Positions 2,900 through 44,741 of a stretch of 63,517 nucleotides of DNA are shown here, in pieces; position 1 is the stretch's first letter, and each line of letters opens with the position of its first letter. The translations under genes and the position numbers were made by a program. Origin of the DNA: Candidatus Mediterraneibacter merdavium (GTDB lineage Bacteria > Bacillota > Clostridia > Lachnospirales > Lachnospiraceae); the NCBI GenBank assembly GCA_019118545.1, contig DWYT01000010.1:1-63517 (forward strand), written 5' to 3'. Below the pieces are notes generated by a model. It ran no database searches and had not been told where the DNA came from. It saw only the letters and a program-made list of their open reading frames with translations.

Positions 2900-3518
2900 A
2901 TATCTTTCACTGATCAGCCGTACCGTGAAGATCGTGTGGGATGAGGACAATATATACGGCGACAGTCAGATCTTCGGATTCTGGCATGAGGACAGCTTTT
3001 TTATGAACCTTGTGCTCGAAAAGCTGTCGCACAAGACCGCGCCTGTGGACGTGATCGTGACGGCTGACACAAGAGGAAATTACATTGAGGATATGGTCAG
3101 ACGGTGCGGGGGAAACGCCCTTCGTGTCCCGGACGGATACAAAGCCTTCCCGGCGCTGAGAAAGATTGTTCAGGATTCTTATGAAAAGACACACTCGCTT
3201 GCCGTGGCGCTGGACGGTCCGCTGGGGCCAAGACATGAGCCGAAGAAGCTGGCGTTCTATCTGTCAGAACACGCAGAGGAAGAGTTTGTCGGCGTCAGCC
3301 TTTCATACTCCGCCTGCCTGCGGCTGACACGCAGATGGGATAAATATGTGATACCGCTGCCCTTTACGGCGGTTACCGTGGCAGTGAGAAATTACGGTAT
3401 TGTGAAGAAAAACGCGGTTCCCGCACTGCCCGTGGACGCGAAAGCGGCGGCGAGAGAAGAGTGCATATCAGTAGCCGTACCGGAGCGGGCGACGGAAAGG
3501 CTGTCAGAAAGCGTCTGA
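2850..3518 (+). CDS. DUF374 lysophospholipid acyltransferase-like protein
   Basis: A 222-residue protein of the DUF374 family, related to lipid A and lysophospholipid acyltransferases. Visible hallmarks are FGFWHEDSFF near residue 40 (the H-x4-D-like acyltransferase site), VTADTRGNYIEDMVRRCGG, and DGPLGPRHEPK near residue 130. The start at 2850 is inside the 3' end of the glycosyltransferase gene and is preceded by GAAAGGAAGAGAGAGG. A longer upstream extension in the same frame is arginine-rich shadow of the overlapping gene. The DedA, GT4, DUF374 order suggests acyl-glycolipid synthesis; that is inference. Confidence 0.82.
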   Translation: MGRKKIAESILQWLFTRYLSLISRTVKIVWDEDNIYGDSQIFGFWHEDSFFMNLVLEKLSHKTAPVDVIVTADTRGNYIEDMVRRCGGNALRVPDGYKAFPALRKIVQDSYEKTHSLAVALDGPLGPRHEPKKLAFYLSEHAEEEFVGVSLSYSACLRLTRRWDKYVIPLPFTAVTVAVRNYGIVKKNAVPALPVDAKAAAREECISVAVPERATERLSESV

Positions 3519-9843: not shown

Positions 9844-9928
9844 TGCGGAAGAGGAGACTTGAACTCCCACAGGATAAAACTCCCACTAGAACCTGAATCT
9901 AGCGCGTCTGCCATTCCGCCACTTCCGC
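9844..9928 (-). tRNA. tRNA-Leu (CAG)
   Basis: An 85-base minus-strand cloverleaf with a long variable arm, typical of leucine tRNA. The acceptor stem is GCGGAAG with CTTCCGC, the anticodon stem CTAGA with TCTAG encloses the loop TTCAGGT, giving anticodon CAG, and the T loop is TTCAAGT. The discriminator is A and CCA is not encoded. Confidence 0.95.
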
Positions 9929-10007: not shown

Positions 10008-10746
10008 GCCATTTAATTCAGGAACTTCTTCTTGCAGAATCCGAAAAACTAATTGCTAAAAACGTATTCGGAGCGGATGAAGGGCCACCGGGATTCCGCT
10101 GCAGGGAATAAGAAAAGCTACAGATTCCGGCTATGTCCGAAAAGCAAGGACTGCCGATGGACAACTTCCTACGGTCAGACAATTCCATCGGCAGTCCTAA
10201 GGGACATACCCGCAACCTTGAGCTTTTCTAATTCCCTTCCGAAGTCACCCGGACAGCTCCTTCACCCGCTCCGAAAGTTTTTCAAGCATTTCGTTTTCTT
10301 AAATTCTCCAAATATGAAGTTACAGAGTAAACAGCCGGAAAGCTGCACGGCGCGGCGGGAAAGTTATCTGGAAAGGAGTATCCGTAAGCCGCGCCGGTCT
10401 GTACCTGTGTCCATTTGATTCGGCGGCATTTTCGCTTTGTGAAGTAGGAAGCGGCTGATAAATTGGAAGAAGCGGTCAGCGGCGGGGAGAGGTTGAGATG
10501 TGACTTTGAAGGAAGCTGACAGAATATCTTACCGGGATGAGGAGATGTTGTTAAGCAGTGTGAGGGGATTGTCTGAGTGAAACGAGTTGCGCCTCACACT
10601 GCTTCGCATTTAAACAGCTTCTCAGTCCGTTAGATATTCCCAGATTCCTGACCGGAACAGCGAAACCTCTCCCCGCCGCTGACCGTATTTCAACAGCTTC
10701 TCCGCTTCCAGATATTCTTAAAAAAAATATTGCTGAATTAAATGGC
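10008..10746. repeat. 739-bp structured non-coding element, copy 1
   Basis: This copy starts with GCCATTTAATTC (10008-10019) and ends with its exact inverse (10735-10746). It has the same length, ends and orientation as copy 2 at 43664-44402 and is closely similar through most of its length. It folds into two long imperfect hairpins. The first is centred on identical 15-base arms at 10147-10161 and 10184-10198; the second has 13-base arms at 10553-10565 and 10592-10604 inside wider arms that include GGTCAGCGGCGGGGAGAGGTT and its inverse near 10641-10685 (shown in part). No credible protein gene lies inside. I see no target-site duplication. It looks like a MITE-type or structured-RNA element. 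Confidence 0.8.
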
Positions 10747-10878: not shown

Positions 10879-12126
10879 ATGGAAAATAAGACGGGAAGCT
10901 TTATCGCACATCGGAGAAAAGAGCTGGGAATGACCCAGAGACAGCTTGCGGAGATTCTGGGTGTTACGAATAAAGCAGTATCAAAATGGGAGACCGGTCA
11001 GGGGATGCCAGATGTAGGCATGCTTCCGGAGCTTTCAAGGGCGCTGGGAGTGACTGTGGACGAGATATTGGACGGTAAGGAAGTGGTGAGAGAAGATCTT
11101 CCCACGGAAGCCGTCATAGAAGTTCTACCATATGAAGGGAGCCTGCTTGATCTGGCAGTGGAACGTGCGGCGAAAAAGATGTCAGGAGTCAGTGTGAAAC
11201 CCTGCGATGTGGCCGGAGTGCTGTGCCTCTTTCTGGCGGCAGGACTTATCGCGGTACAGGTCTGGTATCTCCTGAGGGGAAGAAGCTACGGACTTACATA
11301 TCTGACAGATTACATACCTGCAGTGATGTCCGGGGCCTCGGTGGTGCTCTTATGGCTCGGCGGCATCTTTGTCCGGTGTCTGCGTCATATATGGAAAAAA
11401 GGATGTGTTCTGATCGCGGCGGCAATTTTGTTTATCACGGGTATTGCGGTGAATGTGGTGTTCCGCCCGGAAGGACGTGAGATCATAAGTATCTCGCCCG
11501 GCGCTTCGAACATCATGCGCTTGAAGCTTACGGAGGACGGGAGCGCGGATTTGTACAGGCAGAGAGGCGTCATATTCGCGGCACAGTGGGATACCTTTCC
11601 CTTTACGGTAAAAGACAGCATAAAGATACAATGGCTGGAAGATGATGTGTGCGCCATGACCTATGAATCACCGGATGACGGAGATGTCCATCAGTATGTG
11701 GCGACTTACGGAGACCGGGGAAGCGGAATTTCTTACTACTATGTATTTAGTATGGTGCACGGGACATGGGCGGCGGAAGATGACCGGGACAACTATGCGA
11801 TAGAGGTGATAGACGGGCCGGGAGCCGGTATCACCGTGCATACACCAGAAGGGACAAAAAGCTATACAGCCGATCAGTGCCTCCAATATGGTACACTTGC
11901 CCTCGTCTTTCCCAGAGAAAATCCGCAGTGGACATTGGTGATGAACAAGGACTGTGTGTTGGATGAAAATGATTCCGGGATAGAAGAAGGCGGTACACTG
12001 ACATTGTGCAGAGTGGGCATGGACAAGACTGCCCCTCTGATACTTGACAGAGCGTCAGGAGAAGGAAAACTCAGCCTGATACCCAGCAAAGCAATGTCGG
12101 ATGAAACGCTTAAAGATAAGGATTGA
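10879..12126 (+). CDS. XRE-type HTH protein fused to a membrane and extracytoplasmic domain
   Basis: A 415-residue protein. Residues 1-65 are a Cro/CI-type helix-turn-helix (ELGMTQRQLAEILGVTNKAV then SKWETGQGMPD). Three hydrophobic helices follow near 113-135, 147-170 and 175-197, and about 215 residues at the C-terminus appear to be outside the cell. This fits a one-component membrane sensor that binds DNA directly. AAGGGAGGAG precedes the ATG. The next gene starts 15 bases after its stop and has the same anchor-plus-extracellular build, so the two probably act together. The signal and target are unknown. Confidence 0.82.
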   Translation: MENKTGSFIAHRRKELGMTQRQLAEILGVTNKAVSKWETGQGMPDVGMLPELSRALGVTVDEILDGKEVVREDLPTEAVIEVLPYEGSLLDLAVERAAKKMSGVSVKPCDVAGVLCLFLAAGLIAVQVWYLLRGRSYGLTYLTDYIPAVMSGASVVLLWLGGIFVRCLRHIWKKGCVLIAAAILFITGIAVNVVFRPEGREIISISPGASNIMRLKLTEDGSADLYRQRGVIFAAQWDTFPFTVKDSIKIQWLEDDVCAMTYESPDDGDVHQYVATYGDRGSGISYYYVFSMVHGTWAAEDDRDNYAIEVIDGPGAGITVHTPEGTKSYTADQCLQYGTLALVFPRENPQWTLVMNKDCVLDENDSGIEEGGTLTLCRVGMDKTAPLILDRASGEGKLSLIPSKAMSDETLKDKD

Positions 12127-43203: not shown

Positions 43204-43578
43204 TTATGGATTCATGGCCTCGTGCTCTTTTTTAATCTCAGCAAAGCAGTCTGGAGCCGTCCATTCACTGTTGGTCGGCGTGAGGATCGCCTTGTAAGGG
43301 AAGGGGCCAGCGCCGCTTTTTCGGATGGCTGCCAAAGCCTGATTGAGACGGTTATCGTCAAGGAAGCAGAAGACGATCATCGTGGAGGGAAGCTCTGGTC
43401 CGTCATAGCTGCCCTCGGCGGGGGTCATATCCTTTATGCCGGCAAGGACGCCTAATGGCTGGTTGTAGTCTGAACTCTGTATACGTTTCAGACGGATGCG
43501 CAGGGGGAACAGCGCCATCTCCAGCTTTAAGAGCTGCTCCTTTTCCGGGGGATTAAAAAGTAAGATTGTTTCTTTCAT
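43204..43578 (-). CDS. DUF3783 protein
   Basis: A 124-residue protein matching the DUF3783 family by its C-terminal half: MIVFCFLDDNRLNQALAAIR followed by PYKAILTPTNSEW near residues 68-108. Function is unknown. AGGAGAA lies upstream of the ATG. It sits between the toxin-antitoxin module and copy 2 of the 739-bp element, all on the same strand as the module, with its own start signals. Confidence 0.8.
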   Translation of the reverse strand: MKETILLFNPPEKEQLLKLEMALFPLRIRLKRIQSSDYNQPLGVLAGIKDMTPAEGSYDGPELPSTMIVFCFLDDNRLNQALAAIRKSGAGPFPYKAILTPTNSEWTAPDCFAEIKKEHEAMNP

Positions 43579-43663: not shown

Positions 43664-44402
43664 GCCATTTAATTCGGGAACTTCTTCTTGCAGAATCCGA
43701 AAACCTAATTGCTAAAAACGTATTCGGAGCGGATGAAGGAGCTGTCCGGGATTCCGCTACAGAAGATAGAAAAACTGACAGGTTCCGGCTATGTCCGAAA
43801 AACAAGGACTGCCGATGGACAACTCACTTCGTTCAAACAATTCCATCGGCAGTCCTAAGGGACATAGCCGGAGCCTTAAGTTTTACTACTCTTCTTCCAA
43901 AGTCACCCGGGCAGCTCCTTCACCCGCTCCGAAAGTCTTTCAAGCATTTCGTTTCCTTAAATTCTCCAGATATAGCGTTCCCGAGTAACAGCCGGAAAGC
44001 AACATGGGCGCGGCGGAAAGCTATCCGCAAGATGGGCGTATTCTAGCCGCGCCAGTCTTTGTTTGTGTCCATTTGATTCGGCGGCATTCTCGCTTTGGGA
44101 AGTAGGAAGCGGCCGATGAATTTAAGGAAGCAGTCAGTGGCGGGAAGGCGCGGCTTCTGTGACTTAGAGGAATCCGTTGGAGCGGCTTAGGGATAAGGGA
44201 TTGTTGTTAAGCGGCACAATGGGGTTGTCTGAATGAAATGAGTTCCCCATTGTGCCGCTTCGCTCTTAAACAGTCCCGCAACCCTTTAGTCCGCTCCCGG
44301 ATTCCGGACCGGAACAGAAACGCGCCTCCCCGCCACTGACTGCACTTCTAAAATGATTCTTCGCTTCCGGACATTCTTTGAAATGTCGCTGAATTAAATG
44401 GC
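43664..44402. repeat. 739-bp structured non-coding element, copy 2
   Basis: Same length, 12-base ends and orientation as copy 1 (10008-10746). Ends are GCCATTTAATTC at 43664-43675 and its inverse at 44391-44402. Hairpin 1 has arms AGGACTGCCGATGGA (43805-43819) and the inverse (43842-43856), identical to copy 1, within wider arms including CCGGCTATGTCC and GGACATAGCCGG. Hairpin 2 has 16-base arms AAGCGGCACAATGGGG (44209-44224) and the inverse (44245-44260); these differ from copy 1 but still pair. The loop motif matches that of copy 1. No protein gene or target-site duplication is seen. Confidence 0.8.
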
Positions 44403-44486: not shown

Positions 44487-44741
44487 ATGAGGGTCTGTGA
44501 ACTGAGGAATAAGGAAGTTATCAATATATGCAGCGGCAGGCGGCTCGGATGTATCGTAGATGTGGAGATCAATGTGTGCAGCGGCGAGGTGGAGGCGGTC
44601 ATTATCCCGGGACCGGGAAAGATATGCGGATTCCTCGGGACAGACTGCGAGTATGTCATTCCTTTTGCGTGTATCCGTAAGATCGGGCCGGATATCGTGA
44701 TTGTGGAAATACAGGAAGAAAAGTTTTTGCAAAAATTTTAA
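44487..44741 (+). CDS. YlmC/YmxH family sporulation protein (PRC-barrel)
   Basis: An 84-residue PRC-barrel-like protein of the YlmC/YmxH family, associated with sporulation genes in Bacillus and clostridia. The pattern LRNKEVINICSGRRLGCIVD, then the GEVEAVIIPGPGKICGF stretch is characteristic. AAAAGGAGGGGCGGC sets the ATG at 44487; an upstream in-frame extension would start inside the repeat element and is rejected. Its stop overlaps the nrdR promoter region. Confidence 0.9.
   Translation: MRVCELRNKEVINICSGRRLGCIVDVEINVCSGEVEAVIIPGPGKICGFLGTDCEYVIPFACIRKIGPDIVIVEIQEEKFLQKF

Follow-up and report, generated by a model that had tools for sequence, protein, structure and literature searches.

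A gene-free composite repeat with a conserved hairpin core, probably moved by an IS66-type transposase, in Candidatus Mediterraneibacter merdavium

The 63,517-nucleotide stretch of Candidatus Mediterraneibacter merdavium DNA analyzed here, called the window throughout, contains two similar blocks, and the question is what kind of element they represent, how they came to their positions and whether their interior has a role. Both blocks are 739 bp long, start with GCCATTTAATTC and finish with GAATTAAATGGC. Their terminal inverted repeats are 12 bp long, exact, and identical in the two copies. Each copy is made up of a hairpin L, a small hairpin M and a hairpin R (L-M-R), of which L and R are very long. 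The copies, their ends and their neighbours are as follows.

10008..10746, + strand: composite element copy 1 (L-M-R), from own-genome comparison and the empty site in G063 and G032
10008..10019, + strand: left inverted end GCCATTTAATTC of copy 1
10735..10746, - strand: right inverted end of copy 1
9844..9928, - strand: tRNA-Leu(cag), neighbour of copy 1
10879..12126, + strand: helix-turn-helix gene, neighbour of copy 1
43664..44402, + strand: composite element copy 2 (L-M-R), from the empty site in G063, G032, G066, G062 and G079
43664..43675, + strand: left inverted end of copy 2
44391..44402, - strand: right inverted end of copy 2
43204..43578, - strand: DUF3783 gene, neighbour of copy 2
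near 44487..44741, + strand: PRC-barrel gene, neighbour of copy 2

Alignment of copy 1 with copy 2 over the full length (79% identity, E 1e-172) confirmed the description in an earlier note on this DNA of two 739-bp copies at these positions with inverted ends and related interiors. The copies are not parts of a longer duplicated region: their 100-bp flanks gave no convincing alignment to each other, and relatives have empty sites. The same note saw no transposase or other gene inside, and this view was upheld, as no ORF of at least 80 aa is common to both copies and hence no conserved gene is present; nothing in copy 2 corresponds to the one listed ORF of that size within copy 1 (10053-10418).

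The two large hairpins into which the interiors had been said to fold were found in both copies, with the following borders.

10008..10336, no strand assigned: hairpin L of copy 1, inner border set by eye
10337..10409, no strand assigned: small G+C-rich hairpin M of copy 1, borders set by eye
10410..10746, no strand assigned: hairpin R of copy 1
43664..43993, no strand assigned: hairpin L of copy 2, inner border set by eye
43994..44067, no strand assigned: small hairpin M of copy 2, borders set by eye
44068..44402, no strand assigned: hairpin R of copy 2

The reverse complement of each half aligned back to that half with roughly 70% identity (E 1e-16 to 5e-22). R is a diverged, inverted L: its reverse complement has the L motifs, and model R1, built from L, detects the R modules of the window on the opposite strand (10496-10663 and 44164-44308).

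A search of the own genome with the copies, a draft of 2.77 Mb in 168 contigs that is 89.6% complete, returned dozens of dispersed matches, so that the earlier statement that the element is present twice was wrong. There are 84 matches, some of them the two strands of one palindrome, and the mapped loci comprise 57 half-modules across 29 contigs; identity among many of these copies is 70-90%. The modules are arranged as L+R composites, as a solo L (contig C151), as about ten full solo R units of about 340-370 bp, and as L paired with an inverted L (C6:6346-7088 and C53:18162-18834). The lengths of eight composites in which both ends are present are 739, 739, 839, 731, 737, 743, 673 and 753 bp. 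Because they span 673-839 bp, the equal length of the window copies is a coincidence and carries no weight, and the argument that constant length reflects selection on the whole unit fails, the halves also occurring alone. Hits separated by less than 700 bp in genomes G002 and G036 ran + then - in 12 of 12 pairs. Among the loci viewed in other genera the module is mostly solo, with an inverted pair in G126.

For comparison of empty and filled sites the flanks of each copy were joined and then sought in relatives. The site of copy 2 is unbroken in G063 (87%), G032, G066, G062 and G079, and that of copy 1 in G063 (84%) and G032 (81%). The simplest reading would be that both insertions postdate the split from G063; the alternative is precise loss elsewhere. 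Under strict filters there were 44 core hits in the own genome, two in G063 and none in G032. The bases adjoining both insertions differ from the empty sites, and comparison with these sites revealed no target duplication at either window copy. The lack of such a duplication had been recorded correctly for both; solo units do have duplications.

The ends of the ten full solo R units run outward towards GTAACAGTTCAGCCATTTGATTC, the longer end being GTAACAGTTCAG. Target duplications of 7-10 matching bases flank seven of the ten: 7/8 at C31 and C76, 8/8 at C88 and C146, nine at C39, ten at C97, and eight at a shortened end at C126. The window copies lack the outer GTAACAG of the solo ends. No clear duplication was present in any of the 11 composite or L-bearing elements examined, three of which (C6, C24:6893 and C53) have imperfect candidates. 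The mechanism of insertion, left open earlier, is thus answered in part, for the solo units and not for the composites.

Short hairpin MITEs, 54-164 bp long, form a second family with the same end GTAACAGTTCAG; its own-genome loci (L088, L091, L095, L102 and L106) lie on contigs C9, C18, C83, C16 and C42. Among the short MITEs viewed, six are clearly two-ended, and these comprise three with perfect 8-bp duplications, one with 7/8 and two with none. The GTAACAGTTCAG-type end pattern is present in 30 of 41 genus genomes and the IS66 transposase (PF03050) in 14 of 41. No match to a PF03050 helper was found in the own genome, which is a draft, 89.6% complete.

Twelve IS66 loci were scanned for the solo-type end, and L133 in G016 matched. 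Its ends are GTAACAGTTCAGCC and GTAACAGTTCACCC (in short form GTAACAGTTCAG and GTAACAGTTCAC), and it encodes an intact 485-aa PF03050 protein and is flanked by an 8-bp duplication, CGAAAAAA. Another IS66 element, L132, has ends GTTACTGTTCA and duplication GCCGGAAT. Three of four Hungatella solos have the end GTTACTG or GTAACAG; both G295 solos, from another family, have the end GTTAnnGTTCAGG, without a clean duplication. Judged from these ends and duplications, movement of the solo units in trans by an IS66-type transposase is likely, and for the composites we infer the same. Mobility itself is solid, an IS66-type helper is likely, and the window element is probably a composite MITE-like element moved by IS66. 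The proposal that it is MITE-like and moved in trans thereby gained support from its terminal inverted repeats, the dozens of copies scattered over the genome, the unoccupied sites in relatives and the solo-type end of an IS66-family IS in a congener.

Several other observations were made on IS66 elements. L132 (G013:C124) and L392 (G033:C38), with their flanks, are 99.9% identical over 3.7 kb across two species-level genomes, which points to either recent transfer or assembly contamination. L132 was considered as an IS66 element carrying the core, given a weak partial hit (R1 22.9 bits, E 0.0022; model R2 14.5 bits). This candidate was dropped: the hairpin resembles a terminator, and the L392 copy, being 99.9% identical, is not independent. 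By eye, TTATCCACA-like stretches lie near an end in both elements (L132:1-300 and L133:1830-1910), and these we take to resemble DnaA boxes. Cargo between distant units was sought in G025 and G081 and rejected, the units of L280, L282 and L285 having a near partner or a position at a contig end; no U-genes-U element was recognised among these three loci.

Within the modules lies a conserved core of 165 nt, located in the window as follows.

10088..10252, - strand: core in L of copy 1 (model hit on +; the mismatch test favours - as the folded strand)
10496..10663, + strand: core in R of copy 1 (model hit on -; the mismatch test favours +)
43746..43910, - strand: core in L of copy 2 (model hit on +)
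44164..44308, + strand: core in R of copy 2 (model hit on -)

Of the 20 column pairs with the strongest covariation among 28 L modules, 11 fell in the predicted hairpin (0.04 expected), as did 17 of the top 100; when partners were slid by 1-2 positions, 0-2 of the top 100 did so. RNAalifold on 29 cores gave 45 pairs, 30 of them with changes on both sides. Sixty diverse cores were aligned by the model, an alignment that leans to the model structure: 91.8% of 2660 cells pair (58.6 in shuffled controls), the covariation score is 0.826 (0.211 shuffled, 0.10-0.17 slid), and 912 cells changed on both sides (271 shuffled). Two weak measures on this set gave double changes in 44 of 45 pairs against 38.5 shuffled, and 126 further pair types against 124.1, with 182 of 500 shuffles as high. 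One row, G000_C134, was left out on account of an insertion; in alignment A3 antisense, duplicate and gappy rows were removed and 50 of 83 kept.

Conservation is higher at unpaired than at paired positions (0.73 against 0.57; 27 effective sequences). The conserved unpaired blocks include the apical AACTCG-C-TnC-G-CTCAGACA, CTAA/TAAG and CTAAAAGC/TAAC, and the closing pair of the apical C-GNA-G mini-hairpin covaries. Three loci of short MITEs (L088, L091 and L102), included as negative controls, had no R1 match. Across several families of Clostridia the fold of the core is held by strong covariation together with conserved motifs at unpaired positions. No Rfam family reached the gathering level anywhere over the window, so none covers the whole unit; at E<=1 copy 1 matched only two microRNA models, far below gathering, and four distant core loci gave no family over the gathering score. 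The earlier note had offered a structured RNA as the alternative to a MITE. With its covariation and conserved loops the core is indeed a candidate RNA, and the two readings are not alternatives.

The mismatches in the helices suggest which strand folds. In helices 3-7, in plus letters, A-C outnumbers G-U by 65 to 23, and pyrimidine mismatches outnumber purine ones by 68 to 11. The columns lean 25 to 4 (p 1e-4), a figure that is indicative only, the sequences being related. An alignment not fitted to the model had the same direction (30/14, 21/4; 17 against 5 columns). G-U cells number 23 of 2186 on the + strand and would be 65 if read on the - strand; G-U pairs in typical RNAs are commoner than in the core. 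Since on the opposite strand these mismatches turn into G-U and, for the most part, G-A, the test favours the complement of L, which is R on the + strand of the window. The apex on the favoured strand is UUGUCUGAGC-GnA-GCGAGUU. Near-equal G-U and A-C had been considered as a sign of a DNA palindrome, and this was weakened by the later mismatch strand bias. By a crude method covering 19 tandem sites of 45 elements, the incomplete L372 being left out of the count, the elements show no preferred direction relative to genes (8 same, 11 opposite). The scarcity of wobble pairs and this lack of an orientation bias both speak against RNA.

R1 matches were found in 47 of 58 Mediterraneibacter genomes, the own genome included, and in 8 of 199 other Lachnospiraceae genomes drawn. 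Of 390 further genomes sampled across the class, six had R2 matches, two being Lachnospiraceae and four belonging to other families. Core copies in Mediterraneibacter genomes, frequently arranged in inverted pairs, number up to 49 or more, counts of 49 being at the scoring cap and therefore lower bounds. All 11 non-own loci listed for R2 retain the apical loop, which is a check and not independent proof as the loop is part of the model; at L379 it was identified by eye, the pattern having chosen another stretch. The ends of the copies in G076, with arms up to 112 nt, and of the carriers in G195 are not of the IS66 type. Many of the core hits in G005, G025 and G081 fall no more than a few hundred bases from the end of a contig, and because of this the repeat, which probably breaks draft assemblies, is probably undercounted.

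Five G195 copies were compared with one another. Their arms are 0.85-1.0 complementary within a copy and 0.43-0.70 alike between copies (random 0.43), and their cores are 0.68-0.91 alike. At loci L289, L373, L374 and L375 the arms look as if both had been replaced together.

Phage and plasmid sequences contained no match to copy 1. A viral origin was tried by means of the core pattern and rejected, as the models scored nothing above 10.9 bits in the seven viral contigs found. A total of 87 viral contigs (L397-L483) contain the apical 19-mer TGTYTGAGCGNAGCGAGTT, with 22 R2 matches at E<=0.1, the best of 34.5 bits. The 19-mer was rejected as a marker of the element: alone it is not diagnostic, because 64 of the 87 contigs lack a long flanking stem. 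The apical loop motif is wider than this element.

We are fairly confident in the overall explanation that the window copies are gene-free, non-autonomous mobile composites, moved in trans by an IS66-type transposase and keeping the fold of their core. The element consists of one large hairpin module present twice in inverted orientation, with a small hairpin as the link, and the transposase would act on the module. The window composites may have been moved by IS66, with the outer end bases and the duplication lost later, or may have arrived by another route. The core may act as a folded single strand, most likely as RNA in read-through transcripts, and this is the least certain step. The modules being inverted, transcription leaving the element in either direction would carry one hairpin in the favoured sense. 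We tentatively suggest that this hairpin serves as a two-way cap or protein-recognition site that makes intergenic insertions tolerable or useful. The wider idea, an undescribed class of hairpin domain across Clostridia that moves between unrelated transposon backbones and is useful as RNA or single-stranded DNA, is one we hold with slightly more doubt than conviction.

The palindromes could be by-products of an ordinary MITE, the paired changes arising from mutation that copies one arm onto the other, known as quasipalindrome correction, instead of from selection on the fold. Changes in the pairs do lead from one Watson-Crick type to another with few wobble steps, the unit as a whole is a palindrome, and the G195 arms are complementary within each copy and barely alike between copies. 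However, internal loops persist with conserved sequence, better kept than the stems, mismatches are strand-biased and the apical loop is found in 11 of 11 distant loci, which makes this account unlikely in our view, if one to be taken seriously. Somewhat less probable again is a role of the core as a signal in DNA, extruded as a hairpin from the single-stranded form for transposition or replication of the element; we grade recognition of the core as single-stranded DNA in those processes just as low. The inverted pairing of modules at both ends, the paucity of G-U pairs and the apical C-GNA-G mini-hairpin with its covarying closing pair fit such a signal, and mini-hairpins of this type are very stable in DNA. 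Yet IS66 is a DDE family requiring only its ends, and short MITEs of the same end lack the core. Covariation, conserved loops and intergenic sites could also be expected of a regulatory RNA or attenuator of the host that lies in repeats by chance, but dozens of copies at unrelated genes, the unbiased orientation and the absence of an Rfam family render this improbable. Segmental duplication or an assembly artefact, which two similar blocks within one window might suggest, has practically no probability left, being already refuted by the differing flanks, the many copies at 70-90% identity and the empty sites in relatives.

MITEs are mostly under about 600 bp; the solos, at about 340-370 bp, lie within that range and the composites (673-839 bp) above it. 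As bacterial MITEs are described in the main text of a review (PMC10969869), they resemble the present element in being gene-free, with inverted ends, stem-loops, many intergenic copies and, in our solo units, short length and target duplications; here, in contrast, the core fold is kept between families while arms and ends change, and the modules form an inverted pair. That main text has no mention of IS66 or of Clostrid. Single-ORF insertion sequences of the IS66 family, kin of ISGst1 and ISGka4, share with the solo units the end GTAACAGTTCA, an 8-bp duplication as in L133 and the PF03050 transposase (L133), with plasmid relatives annotated IS66 at 26-30% identity. The window element differs in lacking the transposase and the outer GTAACAG, and its genome yielded no intact helper. 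BOX of Streptococcus pneumoniae, compared by description only (PMC3049150), likewise consists of modular intergenic stem-loop repeats with lone modules and is presumed mobile; its modules are of about 50 nt against about 330 here, where the copies are inverted. Candidate structured RNAs from human microbiomes (PMC8040213) are also palindromic, with predicted structure, in gut bacteria. The four displayed there are 80-132 bp long, unlike our element, three or more of those placed are Bacteroidetes, and 230 of 250 are predicted terminators; the main text contains no transposon words, IS66 or Lachnospiraceae, and overlap with its tables is possible. We recognised no published description of this repeat in a literature search that was thin on subscription journals and preprints.

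The interior of MITEs is generally thought to drift. In this repeat conservation is highest in the interior, across several families of a class, and it is arms and ends that change. This makes the repeat a testable example of mobile DNA that may carry a fold, and not a gene, as its cargo, and raises the question of which host factor reads the fold. It is also abundant in a common gut genus, with many copies at contig ends.

One further arrangement concerns the short MITEs. Ends 1.7 kb apart at G035:C27 (L117) were considered as those of an autonomous element; this was rejected, for the locus consists of two short MITEs (L117:1374-1537 and 2928-3090) flanking an operon. At L117 the MITE end ATGGCTGAACTG coincides with the listed start of the ORFs downstream, and because of this position the repeat may supply their start codons.
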